Positions 12,895-18,592 of a DNA stretch of 64,000 nt are shown piece by piece; the first letter of the stretch is position 1; each line of letters opens with the position of its first letter. This DNA comes from Aestuariirhabdus litorea (GTDB lineage Bacteria; Pseudomonadota; Gammaproteobacteria; Pseudomonadales; Aestuariirhabdaceae): assembly GCF_003864255.1 (NCBI RefSeq), contig NZ_QWEZ01000001.1:558001-622000 (forward strand), in the 5' to 3' direction. The notes beneath the pieces were generated by a model. It had not been told where the DNA came from, did no database searches, and was given only the letters and a program-made list of their open reading frames with translations. A program made the position numbers and the translations under genes.

Positions 12895-15129
12895 TCAGGC
12901 GCTCGCCATATGGCGATCCCCCTCCAGTGTCAAAGGCTGCAGGTGTCGTGTCAACCTTTCCAGGGTATCGGTCGGCTGCCTTTGGTGGGCAACACTGACC
13001 TCTAGCGAGAGGTCGAAATGCGCTCCATGCTGCTGCTGCAGTTGCAGCAGCAGGTCATCGTAGAGCTGCTGGAGCAGCGCCTCGGCGCTGACGGGGTCGT
13101 GACCCGGCAGCAGCATCATAATCTCATTCTGGCCGTAACGTCCCACAATACAGGATCGCTGCAGGCGCGCGTGGCAGCACTCCACCAGCGTTTTTAATAG
13201 TGCGGTCTGCCCCTCGTCATTGAGTGGGTGCCGGTTGAGCAGGCTGTCACCCAGGGTCCACTGGGCGATACAGAGCGGCTCTTCGTGCTTATTCCACTGG
13301 CGCAGGACGCGCTGTGCGTGCTTGAGCAGGGCGGTACGGGTCAGCACCCCCGACTCTTCGGTTTCGGTGCCATCGACGGTCACACGATAGCGGCGGTAAT
13401 TGAGGATCTGCTCTTTGATGATTTCGCAAAAATGAGAGGCCTGGCGCAGCTCGGTCTGAGAAAACTCCTGCGACGGCTCGGGCTGAATGAGGATAACCGA
13501 CCATTCACGGCGCCAGCTGTAGAGGGGAATCACCACCAATGCAGAGTCGTTGTAGGCGGTATCGCCCGGACTGTGGCTGCGATGCTGGAGAATCATCGCC
13601 TCCCCCTGGCAGGAGACCCCCTCCAGCAGTTTGAGTCGTCCGCTGATCTCCTGGCTGAACATCTCCTCCATGGCCGGGCCGAGGCTATAGACCCGGATGC
13701 TTCCGGTGTTGCTGTGCAGGAGCGCGCAGTGACGTATTTCCATTACCTGGGAGAGGGTACTGACCAGCTCGCGGTAGAGTTCCGCCTCTGAGCTGCGCGA
13801 GTGGATCGAAGCCAGATAGCGGGTGATGGCATCGGACTTGTGGCGGCGTTTCCTCTCGCTCGTGACCCGGTGATCCACCTCGCGGGAGATCTGCTCCGCC
13901 TGGTCCCGCTCGCGGCGAATGATGTTGATGCGGTCTGCCAGGCCGATGGAGAGGATGATCGCCTCCATCGCGGCAGCGACATGAATCCCATAGAGGGTAA
14001 AGAGATTCTGGCCGATCAGCCCCAGTGCGCTTAGCGAGGCGATAAAGGTGGCGCTGATCAGCAGCAACCAGCCGGCCAGGAACCAGCGGGCCTGGCGGTT
14101 GCCTTTGCGCAGGGCGATGAAGGAGGCCAGCACCATCAGGGGGGCGAGGATAAAGTTGGCCCAGTTATGGATGCTGGCGGTGATCGAGTCGAGTTCGCGG
14201 ATATTAAACAGGCAGAGGGCTGCGATGCAGAGCAAAAAGCCCAGGGTAAAGGAGATCGCCCGGTTGAGGCCCGGCGCATAGTGGGCCAGGTTGACAAAGC
14301 CCTGGTTGAAACGCGCCGCTGTAGCCGCCGCCAGGCAGGCGCAGAAGACCAGTTGCTGGACACCCCACTGGGGCCAGGAGATCCAGCTCAACTGGTAAAT
14401 GGTGGCATCGCGGGTCATCAGAAACAGGCACTGGGCCAGCATGTAGAGGCTGTAGCGCAGGTAGTTGCTATCGTGCAGAAAGCTAAACAGCAGCAGGTTG
14501 TAGAGGGCAAAGGCCAGCATGGTGGTGAAGATCGCCGTGAGGAACACGGTCATGTTGCTGTCCTGGCGAGCAAGCGCATCGGCTTGCCAGAGTTTGACCG
14601 GAACGCGAATGGTCAGGCTGTCTTCGAGGTAGAGGTAGTAGGGACGCAGATCGTTATGACGCAGGCGGACCGGCACTTCGTTGTGGTTGAGGGCCGGCGC
14701 CGGGTCGTTGCTCAGGTAATCGTAGCCGCGGGAATAACGCTGGTAGCCGGAGTCGGTTGGCACATAGAGTTGCATCCGGTCGTAGAGGGTGCGGCGAAAC
14801 TCGAGAATGCGATCGAGGGAGGCTCCCTCCCTGGGGGTGAGGATAAAGCGGAGCCAGATGCCATCGCGGGTGCGCGGCAGGCTGAAGGGGGAACCGTTAT
14901 TTTCGTTAAACAGCCCGCGCTGGTAGGCGCGCTCGACCTGCTCGATCCCCAACGCACCGCGGTTGGTGCGCCAGTACATCAAGTGGGGCACGATATCGAT
15001 CACCGCCTGGTCATCGACGCTAATAGGCGGTTGCTCAGCGGCACCAGCGGGCTCGAGGCATAACAGGGCGAGCAGGGCCAGCGGCGCAACCAGGCGGTCC
15101 AGCCAAATCCTTGGCAACGAGGTGAACAT
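12895..15129 (-). CDS. 7TM-DISM receptor with GAF-like and decayed GGDEF domains
   Basis: After a signal peptide (to about residue 31) comes an extracytoplasmic DISMED2-like beta domain (about 32-175) and a 7TM-DISM membrane block (about 185-395), as in sensors of carbohydrate or other ligands. The cytoplasmic part has a coiled linker, a GAF-like domain (about 430-565) and a GGDEF-fold domain (about 585-740). The signature loop reads GRYGQNEIMM in place of RxGGDEF, so the metal- and substrate-binding residues are lost and cyclase activity is unlikely; it may bind c-di-GMP or only signal by contact. The total is about 744 residues. ATG 15129 starts the signal peptide; ATG 15153 is an alternative. 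Confidence 0.8.
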   Translation of the reverse strand: MFTSLPRIWLDRLVAPLALLALLCLEPAGAAEQPPISVDDQAVIDIVPHLMYWRTNRGALGIEQVERAYQRGLFNENNGSPFSLPRTRDGIWLRFILTPREGASLDRILEFRRTLYDRMQLYVPTDSGYQRYSRGYDYLSNDPAPALNHNEVPVRLRHNDLRPYYLYLEDSLTIRVPVKLWQADALARQDSNMTVFLTAIFTTMLAFALYNLLLFSFLHDSNYLRYSLYMLAQCLFLMTRDATIYQLSWISWPQWGVQQLVFCACLAAATAARFNQGFVNLAHYAPGLNRAISFTLGFLLCIAALCLFNIRELDSITASIHNWANFILAPLMVLASFIALRKGNRQARWFLAGWLLLISATFIASLSALGLIGQNLFTLYGIHVAAAMEAIILSIGLADRINIIRRERDQAEQISREVDHRVTSERKRRHKSDAITRYLASIHSRSSEAELYRELVSTLSQVMEIRHCALLHSNTGSIRVYSLGPAMEEMFSQEISGRLKLLEGVSCQGEAMILQHRSHSPGDTAYNDSALVVIPLYSWRREWSVILIQPEPSQEFSQTELRQASHFCEIIKEQILNYRRYRVTVDGTETEESGVLTRTALLKHAQRVLRQWNKHEEPLCIAQWTLGDSLLNRHPLNDEGQTALLKTLVECCHARLQRSCIVGRYGQNEIMMLLPGHDPVSAEALLQQLYDDLLLQLQQQHGAHFDLSLEVSVAHQRQPTDTLERLTRHLQPLTLEGDRHMASA

Positions 15130-15257
15130 GGTTCCATCCCTGAAGTTAGCCATGGGACTCTAGCACGGTGCCTGAGGGGGCTCTAGCAGGACAGCGGTTA
15201 CTGTGGTGCAGTTCTAGTTTTGCCGCTCAGGGGGCGACAGTCTGAAGCCGGTGGGCA

Positions 15258-16214
15258 CTACCCGGCCGGGCGTTCACCAAACTGCTCGACGGCCCAGGTT
15301 ACCCGCTCCGCGACCTCCATGTCCGGATGGGAGAGTGCTTCGATCGCCCGCAGCCTGGGCAGCAGGCCCGTGCCATTGGCAATCTGTACCGCCAGACCCG
15401 GGCGCGCATTGAGCTCAAGGATCATCGGGCCCTGATGCACATCCAGAACGATGTCGGCACCAATGTACCCTAAGCCGGTCATCTCGTAGCTGGACGCCGC
15501 CAGCGGCAAAATGCGATCCCAGTGGGGCACCTGCAGGGTGGCAAAATGGGCACCGGTGTCGGGGTGGTGCGAGACCGGACGATCGTGTTGCACCGCGTGC
15601 AGTGCCTTGCCCGAGGCCAGGTCGATGCCGACCCCTACCGCCCCCTGATGGAGGTTGGCCTTGCCATCGGAGGCTTTGGTTGAACAGCGCATCATCGCCA
15701 TGACGGGAAACCCCTTGAAGATGATGACCCGGATATCGGGAACCCCCTCGTGGCTGAACTCGTCAAATACGTGGTCAAAGTGCACCAGCGATTCGACCAT
15801 GGCGACGTCGGGCTTGCCCCCTAGGCTGTAGAGCCCGCTGAGAATATTGGAGGCGTGGCGAGATATCTCGGCTGGTGAGACACGCTCACCACTGGGTTTG
15901 AGGTAATGGTCACCATCGCGGCCGGTGATCACCAGGATTCCCTTGCCCTGGCTTCCCTGCGCCGGCTTGATCACAAACTCGGAGTAGAGTTCGAGCACCT
16001 GCTGTAACCTATTGACCTGATGCTGTTGCTCAACCACCGCCAGCAGCCGCGGAGTGGCCGCACGGGCTTTCTCAGCCACCAGCTTGGTCTTGAGTTTGTT
16101 ATCCACCAGTGGATAGAAGCGGCGGTTGTTGTAGCGTGAGATGTAGGCGACGTTGCGCCGGTTCATGCCCAGCATACCGTGGGCACGAAGTTTGGAAGGA
16201 GTGGTAAAAAACAC
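15258..16214 (-). CDS. RimK-like ATP-grasp ligase (alpha-L-glutamate ligase-related)
   Basis: The 318-residue ATP-grasp enzyme resembles the RimK-related ligase family found with membrane-bound inactive transglutaminases. Visible are the N-terminal GMNRRNVAYISRYNNRRFYPLVDNK segment split near residues 17-41, the nucleotide-binding lysine region FVIKPAQGSQGKGILVI near 80-97, and the metal-binding end block LELNARPGLAVQIANG near 273-288. Such enzymes join an amino acid or amine to a carboxylate with ATP. It starts with GTG directly after the TAG stop of the transglutaminase gene, so the two are translationally coupled. The substrate is unknown; peptide tagging is inferred from family work on amidoligases. 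Confidence 0.85.
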   Translation of the reverse strand: MFFTTPSKLRAHGMLGMNRRNVAYISRYNNRRFYPLVDNKLKTKLVAEKARAATPRLLAVVEQQHQVNRLQQVLELYSEFVIKPAQGSQGKGILVITGRDGDHYLKPSGERVSPAEISRHASNILSGLYSLGGKPDVAMVESLVHFDHVFDEFSHEGVPDIRVIIFKGFPVMAMMRCSTKASDGKANLHQGAVGVGIDLASGKALHAVQHDRPVSHHPDTGAHFATLQVPHWDRILPLAASSYEMTGLGYIGADIVLDVHQGPMILELNARPGLAVQIANGTGLLPRLRAIEALSHPDMEVAERVTWAVEQFGERPAG

Positions 16215-17753
16215 CTAGCGACCCTCAACCATGGGCTGGAAGCGGCGCAACTCGCTGAGTCGGTAACCGGTGTACTGTCCCACCAGCAGGATGATGCCCA
16301 ACAGCACAAGCAGCAGTTCGGGGAAGTTGAAGGTCAGGTGCTCGACCAGGCGGTTGGTCATCGCCAGATAAGCAATCACCGCCACCAGCAGGCTGCCGCC
16401 CCCCTGCATCACCACCTCCTTGGGGCCATCCTCTTCCCACAGGATCGACATCCGCTCAATGGTCCAGGCAAGAATGATCATGGGGAAGAAGGTGACGGTG
16501 AGGGCCTGGGTGAGTCCCAGTTTGTTACTCAGGATACTCATGGCGGCCATCAGCAGGATGACCACGATCACCACGGCGGATATTCGTGCCACCAGAAGCA
16601 GGTTGAGGTTGCTCAGGTAGGAGCGAATCCAGAGGCCGATGCTGACGATGATCAGAAAGATAGCCAGCCCGGTAAACAGGGTCGTCTGGATCAGTGCAAG
16701 GGCGATCAGGATCGGCATAAAGGTGCCGGAGGTTTTGATGCCCACCAGAATCCTGAGCAGCACGACCACCAGCGCACCAATGGGAACCAGTAGAATATGC
16801 TTGAAGGTATTCTGGATTTCGATCGGCAGGCTGTAGATGGAGAAATCCACCAGCGTTGCTTGTTGCTCCCTGCCTTGGGCGATGGCAATCGCCTTGGCTG
16901 GGCGGATATTCTCGATGATGGAGAAGGTTACACGGGAGTTGGACCCTCCTTCGACGTCCAGCAGGGAGACGCCCCCCCGTTGCCAGAGTAGAAAGTTTTC
17001 GGGGTGACCGGTTTCCCCTGTGGTGGGATTAAACAACACCCAGTGTTTACCATCGTGAATCTCCACCAGTTCTGAGAGGGGCACCCGGCGGCGGCCGTCC
17101 TCCAGCTTGATCCCGCGCACGATGCGGGAGGGGACTCCCGCCGTTGCCAGCACTCTCAGCATCAGGTAAACCTTCTTGTCGATGGTTGAGTCGTGGGGGG
17201 CATTGAGCAGTGAGCTAAGGTTCATGCCACTGCCAGGGTTGTTGATTAACCTTACCAGCTCATTGGTGAAGGTCTTGTTGTCCGATGAACGCTCCTTTAC
17301 CAAATCGATCACGGCGTTGATCGCCGTGCGAGTAGAGGCATCCATCTCGGGTGCCGTCGGCGGCTCTGGTGCCTCGGAAGTGGGTGGTGCAGGATTCTTT
17401 GCGGCGTGGAACAGTTGCAGACGGTAGAAAATGGATTGAGGGCCGGAAGCCTCTCGCCGGGCCCATTCCGCGCGACGCTCTGCACCCTGGCCATCCCAGC
17501 CGAAACCGTATCCCGGTGAGGTGAAGTCCTGACTGAGAATAATATCCCCCGGGCCGGTATTCGGTAATGCCAGGGATACCTTGACGGGTTTATCCTCGGC
17601 ATCAAAAGTGACCTTGGCTTCAACCGTCCAAACGGGGCGCTGCTCTCCGGGTAGCAGAGGAAAGCCGAGCTCAATGCGCTTATAGATGGTCAGTCCCAGA
17701 CCGATAACGATGCAGATCATGGCCAGCAGGTATACCTGTGCACGTGCATTCAT
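16215..17753 (-). CDS. Inactive transglutaminase fused to 7 membrane helices
   Basis: This 512-residue protein has one N-terminal membrane anchor (about residues 7-24), a periplasmic region of about 280 residues with a transglutaminase-like fold, then about seven membrane helices (about 300-500). The usual Cys-His-Asp triad of transglutaminases is not apparent in the region ATAGVPSRIVRGIKLEDG / HDGKHWVLFNPTTGE, in line with the family name. It probably binds a peptide or glycan substrate and couples the periplasm to the cytosolic ATP-grasp ligase encoded next. Its start lies 3 bases after the stop of the retropepsin-like lipoprotein gene. Confidence 0.85.
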   Translation of the reverse strand: MNARAQVYLLAMICIVIGLGLTIYKRIELGFPLLPGEQRPVWTVEAKVTFDAEDKPVKVSLALPNTGPGDIILSQDFTSPGYGFGWDGQGAERRAEWARREASGPQSIFYRLQLFHAAKNPAPPTSEAPEPPTAPEMDASTRTAINAVIDLVKERSSDNKTFTNELVRLINNPGSGMNLSSLLNAPHDSTIDKKVYLMLRVLATAGVPSRIVRGIKLEDGRRRVPLSELVEIHDGKHWVLFNPTTGETGHPENFLLWQRGGVSLLDVEGGSNSRVTFSIIENIRPAKAIAIAQGREQQATLVDFSIYSLPIEIQNTFKHILLVPIGALVVVLLRILVGIKTSGTFMPILIALALIQTTLFTGLAIFLIIVSIGLWIRSYLSNLNLLLVARISAVVIVVILLMAAMSILSNKLGLTQALTVTFFPMIILAWTIERMSILWEEDGPKEVVMQGGGSLLVAVIAYLAMTNRLVEHLTFNFPELLLVLLGIILLVGQYTGYRLSELRRFQPMVEGR

Positions 17754-17756
17754 CTC

Positions 17757-18440
17757 TTATTTTCCTGTTTTCGAAGGGTTGCCGGCTGCGTGCTTCTTAC
17801 TCACATCCACCACGAAGAGGTCGGTAAGCAGGTTGCGTCCGACCAGCACCTTGTAGTCAAACTCGCTGCGATCGGCGAGGGTCACCTCAATGCGTTCACT
17901 GATGTTCCCAATGGTCACCCGCATGCGCACTGCATAGCGCTTGACGTCCTCGGCACCGTGGCGCTTGATGGAGGCGATGCGTGTGATGGGGCGCTCCAAA
18001 ATCTGCGAGCCATCTCCCTCGGCGGCCAGGGTCTTGAATTTGACCCAGCGCTGCCCGTCCCGCTCGAACTCGACGGTATCCCAGGCGTGAATCGAAGTGG
18101 TGGTTGCGCCGGTATCGATACGGGCATCGGTGACAAAGTTGCCGGGAGTTACACGCACCTGCTCGACCTCTCCAATCACCAGCTTCTGGTGGATATCCGG
18201 CTTGGCCGTAATGGGCGGGTTCGCCGGAGCCGGTTCGACAGCCGGAGCTGCAGGCTCGCTGGCAGGGGCCGGCTCAATCGCTGGCGGTGCCGGTACTTTG
18301 GCCGCTGCGGACGATTCGCTGGCAGTTGCCGGTTGAGCGGTCAATTCACTGTCGTTGCCTGGAGAAGAGCCGGGTTGCAGGGCTTGGCAGCCAGATAAAA
18401 TCAGGGAGAGACACAGCAGTACAGTTGGGGAAATTCGCAT
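17757..18440 (-). CDS. Retropepsin-like aspartic protease lipoprotein
   Basis: The 227-residue precursor starts with a lipoprotein signal (lipobox LILSGC, Cys18). An Ala/Pro-rich flexible linker follows (about residues 35-80), then a retropepsin-like domain of the family once annotated as ATP-dependent zinc protease (PF05618). The active-site motif IDTGATTTS has its Asp at about residue 109; one such half-site per chain implies a dimer. It is probably anchored in the outer or inner membrane facing the periplasm. The ATG at 18440 was chosen because it begins the lipoprotein signal and AAGGA precedes it; a codon at 18503 adds a polar leader. It is the first gene of the three-gene operon. Confidence 0.85.
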   Translation of the reverse strand: MRISPTVLLCLSLILSGCQALQPGSSPGNDSELTAQPATASESSAAAKVPAPPAIEPAPASEPAAPAVEPAPANPPITAKPDIHQKLVIGEVEQVRVTPGNFVTDARIDTGATTTSIHAWDTVEFERDGQRWVKFKTLAAEGDGSQILERPITRIASIKRHGAEDVKRYAVRMRVTIGNISERIEVTLADRSEFDYKVLVGRNLLTDLFVVDVSKKHAAGNPSKTGK

Positions 18441-18592
18441 CGAGATATCCTTGGGAGAAGTGTCATCCTGATTGGGAGCGGCTGACTCCCTAGATCCTAG
18501 CAAATAATTGCGCGTCGGTGGGTAACAAACCGCAACAGGCTGAAACGGGATGCTGCTGGCAGCGAGAGGGGACGGGCACGTACAATAGAGGC

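Follow-up and report, generated by a model that had tools for sequence, protein, structure and literature searches.

A diverged rloABC operon in Aestuariirhabdus litorea and a sister clade whose RloB keeps the transglutaminase triad

Introduction

Why would a lipid-anchored aspartic protease, a 7TM protein with a transglutaminase-like domain and a RimK-like ligase be encoded side by side, and in which direction across the membrane would they work? These questions are raised by three genes in the window, by which we mean the whole 64,000-nucleotide stretch of the Aestuariirhabdus litorea genome that was analysed. An initial annotation had read them as a periplasm-to-cytosol pathway, in which the lipoprotein trims a substrate, the 7TM protein relays it and the ligase adds an amino acid in the cytosol, and had left the substrate open. 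Both the family names and the notion of peptide tags reportedly go back to the 2009 amidoligase predictions of Iyer and colleagues. In the PgsBCA/Cap systems, which make and export poly-gamma-glutamate, a ligase works with a membrane protein of several passes and a hydrolase that trims; this scheme is shared with the present locus, but the ligase family differs.

The rloABC genes were named in Pseudomonas aeruginosa by Lormand et al in 2025. In vitro, RloA cleaves chains of 8 or 10 glutamates but none of 6 or fewer, and a mutant without the three proteases regains full growth at low osmolarity when rloB or rloC is deleted as well, its other defects being relieved in part (PMC12239564). An earlier study lists transposon insertions in PA1766, PA1767 and PA1768 as suppressors in wrinkled-colony flagellar mutants (PMC7314104), and disruption of an inactive-transglutaminase gene in Shewanella vesiculosa is described as leading to more vesicles (PMC12096838). 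Here, we identify the three window genes as a diverged version of the P. aeruginosa operon named in 2025, and we describe a related clade in which RloB differs at its transglutaminase site.

Results

The three genes lie in A-B-C order on the minus strand, and their coordinates confirm the gaps of 3 and 0 bases that had been annotated (Table 1). An alternative, longer rloA-like frame opens with TTG at 18503. The trio is flanked by genes for a PPK2 kinase, a 7TMR-DISM protein, a Na+/H+ antiporter family protein and a pyruvate kinase, which we see no reason to count as part of the rlo unit. The 7TMR-DISM membrane protein (12895-15153) has GAF and GGDEF matches below the Pfam cut-offs and is possibly a degenerate cyclase.

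Table 1. Features of the rlo-type operon in the window
Feature	Position	Strand	Description
rloA-like gene	17757..18440	-	ATG start; PF05618 protease domain at residues 88-219
rloA-like lipoprotein signal LSGC	18387-18398	-	lipobox, residues 15-18
rloA-like DTGA motif	18105-18116	-	residues 109-112
rloB-like gene	16215..17753	-	membrane helix, periplasmic triad-less transglutaminase fold and 7TM; PF14400, PF14402
rloB-like periplasmic part, predicted inactive transglutaminase	16899..17684	-	about residues 24-285; from Pfam, model and alignment
rloB-like 7TM domain	16218..16898	-	about residues 286-512
rloC-like gene	15258..16214	-	RimK-like ATP-grasp ligase; GTG start straight after rloB stop; PF14397, TIGR02291

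The best NCBIfam models for the trio are RloA, RloB and "alpha-L-glutamate ligase-like", and the cut-off is reached by the last alone. The RloA-like protein scores 113.7 bits with PF05618 (cut-off 27) and 90.5 bits with the NCBIfam RloA model (cut-off 280); the RloB-like protein scores 167.3 bits with PF14400 and 367.1 bits with PF14402 (cut-off 25 each), and 371.5 bits with the NCBIfam RloB model (cut-off 900), both NCBIfam models being of the kind "exception". The RloC-like protein scores 316.5 bits with PF14397 over residues 19-292 (cut-off 31.4; E 1.8e-94) and 466.2 bits with TIGR02291 (cut-off 314.2), and fails the RimK equivalog test with both NF007764 (18.3 against 331 bits) and TIGR00768 (42.7 against 143.4 bits). 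The window genome (L003) carries a separate RimK gene, and some 1 kb away from that lies a gene with PF05618.

How constant is this gene set? In a class survey of 151 genomes, the PF14402 cut-off was exceeded at 28 places in 27 genomes, and at 21 of the 28 both partners adjoin the PF14402 gene. The other seven comprise one with RloA on a contig that ends before RloC, four with RloC and without RloA, one with RloA on the other strand and without RloC, and one with neither partner. PF05618 is present in 70 of the 151 genomes and is thus far wider than PF14402, so that A occurs without B and C, whereas B and C mostly occur as a pair. Among named genomes, the order A-B-C on one strand was seen in all of the best 80 of at least 571 stretches encoding a relative, which, being close relatives, are a weaker test of constancy than the class survey. 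These surveys uphold the earlier proposal of a dedicated three-gene unit, for which mostly unlinked families would have been adverse evidence and were not seen, and the motif and Pfam results likewise bear out the annotated lipid-anchored DTGA aspartic-protease domain (LSGC, DTGA and PF05618 above its cut-off) and the RimK-like ATP-grasp ligase of amidoligase type (PF14397 and TIGR02291 above theirs).

Similar to P. aeruginosa rloABC, the window operon has the same three families in the same order, with an exported protease, a membrane protein with a predicted dead transglutaminase and an ATP-grasp protein (PMC12239564). The window RloA has solved relatives in 9g58 (E 1.7e-19), 9g59 and 2pma. 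On the alignment to 9g58, with positions transferred by counting from the catalytic Asp, the residues K46, R92, R114 and R137 by which the P. aeruginosa enzyme contacts polyglutamate correspond to R, R, R and R; the contacts are kept, with K46 as R. An Ala/Pro/Glu-rich linker of about 65 residues separates the lipobox from the protease domain. The lipid cysteine of the window RloA is followed by glutamine, which by the usual sorting rule for lipoproteins indicates the outer membrane; the protein is probably anchored in the outer membrane via its lipid and the long linker. Its only cysteines are at positions 10 and 18, with none in the protease domain.

Differences from P. aeruginosa are that the window RloA is a lipoprotein (LSGC) with such a linker, that RloA and RloB miss the NCBIfam cut-offs, and that the protease domain is without cysteine, whereas a disulfide is reported to be conserved in periplasmic orthologs (PMC12239564). 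The lack of disulfide cysteines makes the protein less identical to the P. aeruginosa enzyme and leaves the operon type unaffected. In a motif survey of 81 proteins (the 80 best named relatives and the window), D[TS]GA is present in 75; a lipobox-like motif accompanies it in 69 of these 75, and the protease domain is cysteine-free in 74, the window included. The remaining six (L087, L102, L103, L120, L127 and L144) read DTGS, DTGT or DTAS. Two of them, L120 and L127 from Haliea, have DTAS and have thereby lost the motif glycine; their RloA protease may be dead, which would mean that cutting is perhaps dispensable in some relatives.

At the transglutaminase site, the alignment columns for Cys, His and Asp hold S, S and N in the window RloB (S189, S227 and N242), the exact partner of the Cys column being uncertain as it adjoins a gap. 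The sole cysteine of the protein, C14, lies in the first membrane helix. AlphaFold2 (mean pLDDT 82) models the periplasmic part with a transglutaminase-like fold, and the RloB model matches 3isr (Foldseek 5.5e-10; Z 15.4 over 222 residues), followed by the periplasmic domain of P. aeruginosa TgpA (Z 7.5). Judged by its sequence, the transglutaminase fold of the window RloB is catalytically dead, and the 7TM protein with a triad-less transglutaminase domain of the initial annotation is recovered both in the three columns and in the 3isr-like fold. Pfam describes fusion to an inactive transglutaminase as usual, which leaves room for other cases.

With the 7TM domain alone, Foldseek returned nothing at or below an E value of 0.001, the best being 1.8. 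In VIA-align, its eight best rows are membrane subunits of Rnf, Nqr and methyltransferase complexes (Z 7.3-9.1), a likeness that, in a helical protein, may reflect no more than a common arrangement. A weak pointer to AcrB from the whole-protein RloB model (Z 6.6) was set aside. In a test for an internal repeat, 26 of 100 shuffles scored as high as the 7TM domain itself.

The 7TM domain was also compared with CapC/PgsC. It has no Pfam match to CapC (PF14102); hhalign with shallow profiles gave a probability below 1%, and hmmsearch with filters off gave best-domain E values of 0.2 and 0.26, a PutP symporter scoring better as a false positive (3.7e-4). When a 60-row RloB profile was aligned with hhalign to the same five closely related CapC tandem proteins, the probability was again below 1% and 11 of 60 and 8 of 60 column shuffles scored as high, while one CapC repeat recovers the other with a probability of 74%. 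With these five CapC proteins, homology to the 7TM domain was thus not demonstrated, and we do not claim it. Two matches were dropped before counting, one to PF14402 in G077 (20 bits, below the cut-off, in a PutP protein) and one to PF14102 in G356 (21.5 bits, below the cut-off, best match heme A synthase). Tandem CapC domains in one frame occur in five genomes outside the class of the window (L048-L052, L054-L058), and in four of the five the frame exceeds 1,000 residues and includes a long part without Pfam match.

Is the triad lost everywhere? Cys, His and Asp occupy the transglutaminase positions in the divergent RloB of L060, L061 and L062, which also match Transglut_core (PF01841). The same match is found in L063 and L064 of a third clade although their triad is lost, so that a PF01841 match alone is no proof of activity. 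With L060-L062 as queries, 8 of 369 class genomes matched at E of 1e-120 or better, and 5 further loci were found among 398 phylum genomes, in another class; these 13 loci were chosen by score, not by triad, and in all 13 RloB has the full Cys-His-Asp triad and RloC is present. An intact triad, which the initial annotation had counted against its own reading, is absent at the window locus (S, S, N) and present in 13 of 13 loci of this sister clade. In L193 (6430-8988), triad-bearing RloB and RloC are fused in one open frame of 838 residues from the first ATG. In L192 (6047-7727), from a 79% complete genome, a triad-type RloB is split over two overlapping frames, and would be either a broken gene or an assembly error.

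A TPR protein lies downstream in all 13 sister-clade loci, followed in 11 by a barrel-like protein; in L224 the stretch ends first and L193 has no barrel. Of the 13 loci, 8 had served to build the TPR model and 7 the barrel model, so that the independent matches are 5 of 5 and 4 of 5, respectively. The barrel-like protein is predicted to be an outer-membrane barrel from its signal-like start, its mostly aromatic C-terminal end and weak Pfam matches, one of them above the cut-off (L061, MtrB_PioB). A TPR lipoprotein of a further family is present in 5 of the 13 stretches (model built from 4), the L189 copy lying apart on the other strand. With its TPR protein and predicted barrel, this neighbour set looks like an export line.

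RloA was found in none of the 13 sister-clade stretches, which span 8-14 kb. Seven of the 13 genomes (completeness 88-99%) have no PF05618 match, and the other six have one copy each for which RimB is the top-scoring model (110.9-136.6 bits from the domain alone, the RimB cut-off of 200 being for the whole protein). G033 and G584 have one extra PF05618 copy each, in separate rlo-type loci, scoring best with RloA models.

In an alignment of 120 loci and the window, to which the 5 later sister-clade loci come on top, the triad is full in 8 rows and absent in 113. In all 113, the Cys position and the five columns on either side are free of cysteine, and 42 keep the Asp. The window and 108 of the 120 loci have RloA at a distance of no more than 1.7 kb, and none of these 109 has the full triad: triad and neighbouring RloA never co-occur in the loci examined (Fisher test 8.8e-11, uncorrected for kinship). 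In the tree, the triad rows and the third-clade rows, 7 of each, stand each on one side of a fully supported branch. Since the triad rows form one tree group, the exclusion is perhaps a single event, and one or two events may account for the correlation. A strict swap does not hold for L059, which has RloB and RloC but has lost the triad and has no RloA in its stretch, nor for the third clade. L063 and L194 lack the triad, RloA within 1.7 kb and RloC.

The third clade comprises 8 loci with RloB-like genes, all with the triad lost and without RloC. Five of the 8 have RloA on the opposite strand, no more than 120 bases away, and a RimK above the NCBIfam cut-off is adjacent or near in 3 (L196, L197 and L198). 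L196 and L198 have an extra RloA/RimB-type gene by RimK, and L196 and L197 an RloA-type gene beside RloB, on the other strand.

Discussion

What would the three proteins do together? We think it fairly probable that RloC adds glutamates in the cytosol, that RloB passes or displays the product in the periplasm and that RloA trims it there. Going by its family, the cytosolic RloC would add glutamates stepwise to an acceptor or make free poly-alpha-glutamate. RloB would then carry this product across the membrane or hold it in the periplasm by chain binding; transport is suggested by topology and neighbours, the 7TM domain having no significant match to a solved transporter. The window RloA would cut the chain back, as the P. 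aeruginosa enzyme does in vitro. The published genetics suggest that the product of RloB and RloC may be harmful to the envelope when RloA is missing. The RloB-RloC fusion in L193 and the RimK genes near third-clade RloB tie RloB to a ligase.

In P. aeruginosa, cells without the RloA proteases are rescued when rloB or rloC is lost as well, which fits RloB and RloC acting before RloA and, most simply, a flow outward from cytosol to periplasm. An inward route, with the lipoprotein trimming a periplasmic substrate, RloB importing it and RloC adding an amino acid in the cytosol, is allowed by gene order and predicted cell locations. Such a rescue would be unexpected for it, yet is seen in P. aeruginosa (PMC12239564) and, if it extends to this branch, speaks against the route; the periplasm-to-cytosol direction of the initial annotation is not supported, and we regard this route as highly improbable. 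The substrate that had been left open is narrowed by the cutting of 8- or 10-glutamate runs by P. aeruginosa RloA (PMC12239564).

The same epistasis (PMC12239564) would be explained just as well by a sensor in which the dead transglutaminase would bind a wall fragment or an anionic peptide, the 7TM domain would signal, RloC would modify a cytosolic protein and RloA would destroy the ligand; a dead enzyme fold on a 7TM domain would indeed resemble a receptor. Still, the reported cutting of long glutamate chains suits a ligase product better than a wall fragment (PMC12239564), and the sister clade combines a TPR protein and a predicted outer-membrane barrel with an intact transglutaminase site, so that we hold a sensor to be unlikely. 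Possibly the three proteins share no chain chemistry, RloB stabilising a wall enzyme and the operon being held together by envelope-stress co-regulation; phenotypes of cell wall and biofilm type would agree with this (PMC12239564), but the L193 fusion and the RimK genes in the vicinity of RloB in 3 of 8 third-clade loci speak for a link of RloB to a ligase and make such an arrangement improbable.

Glutamate addition and trimming also have a parallel in RimK-RimB, the system of ribosomal S6 polyglutamylation: like rlo, it pairs an ATP-grasp glutamate ligase with a polyglutamate-cutting, retropepsin-like protease (PMC12239564), but it is without membrane partner and without signal peptide. In the sister clade, where RloB has its own triad and no RloA is nearby, cutting or transfer would perhaps take place in cis at the Cys-His-Asp site of RloB, and a cis cysteine site may have been swapped for a trans aspartic protease. 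More tentatively, and on balance doubtful, the sister clade could represent a full envelope line for non-ribosomal polyglutamate, in which an RloC-like ligase builds the chain, the 7TM domain moves it, the cysteine site cuts or transfers it, and TPR protein and barrel carry it outward, the window operon being a reduced form with a dead cysteine site and a secreted aspartic protease as cutter. The triad-bearing sister clade is new in this analysis, and we do not claim that it is unpublished: our search, which mostly left subscription literature outside, found no paper on a triad-bearing variant with TPR and barrel genes.

In P. aeruginosa, the rlo genes control low-osmolarity survival, biofilm and antibiotic tolerance (PMC12239564). 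The relatives described here provide handles on rlo function: an RloB with an intact cysteine site and no protease gene beside it, a fusion of RloB with RloC that occurs in nature, and partner genes that resemble an export line.
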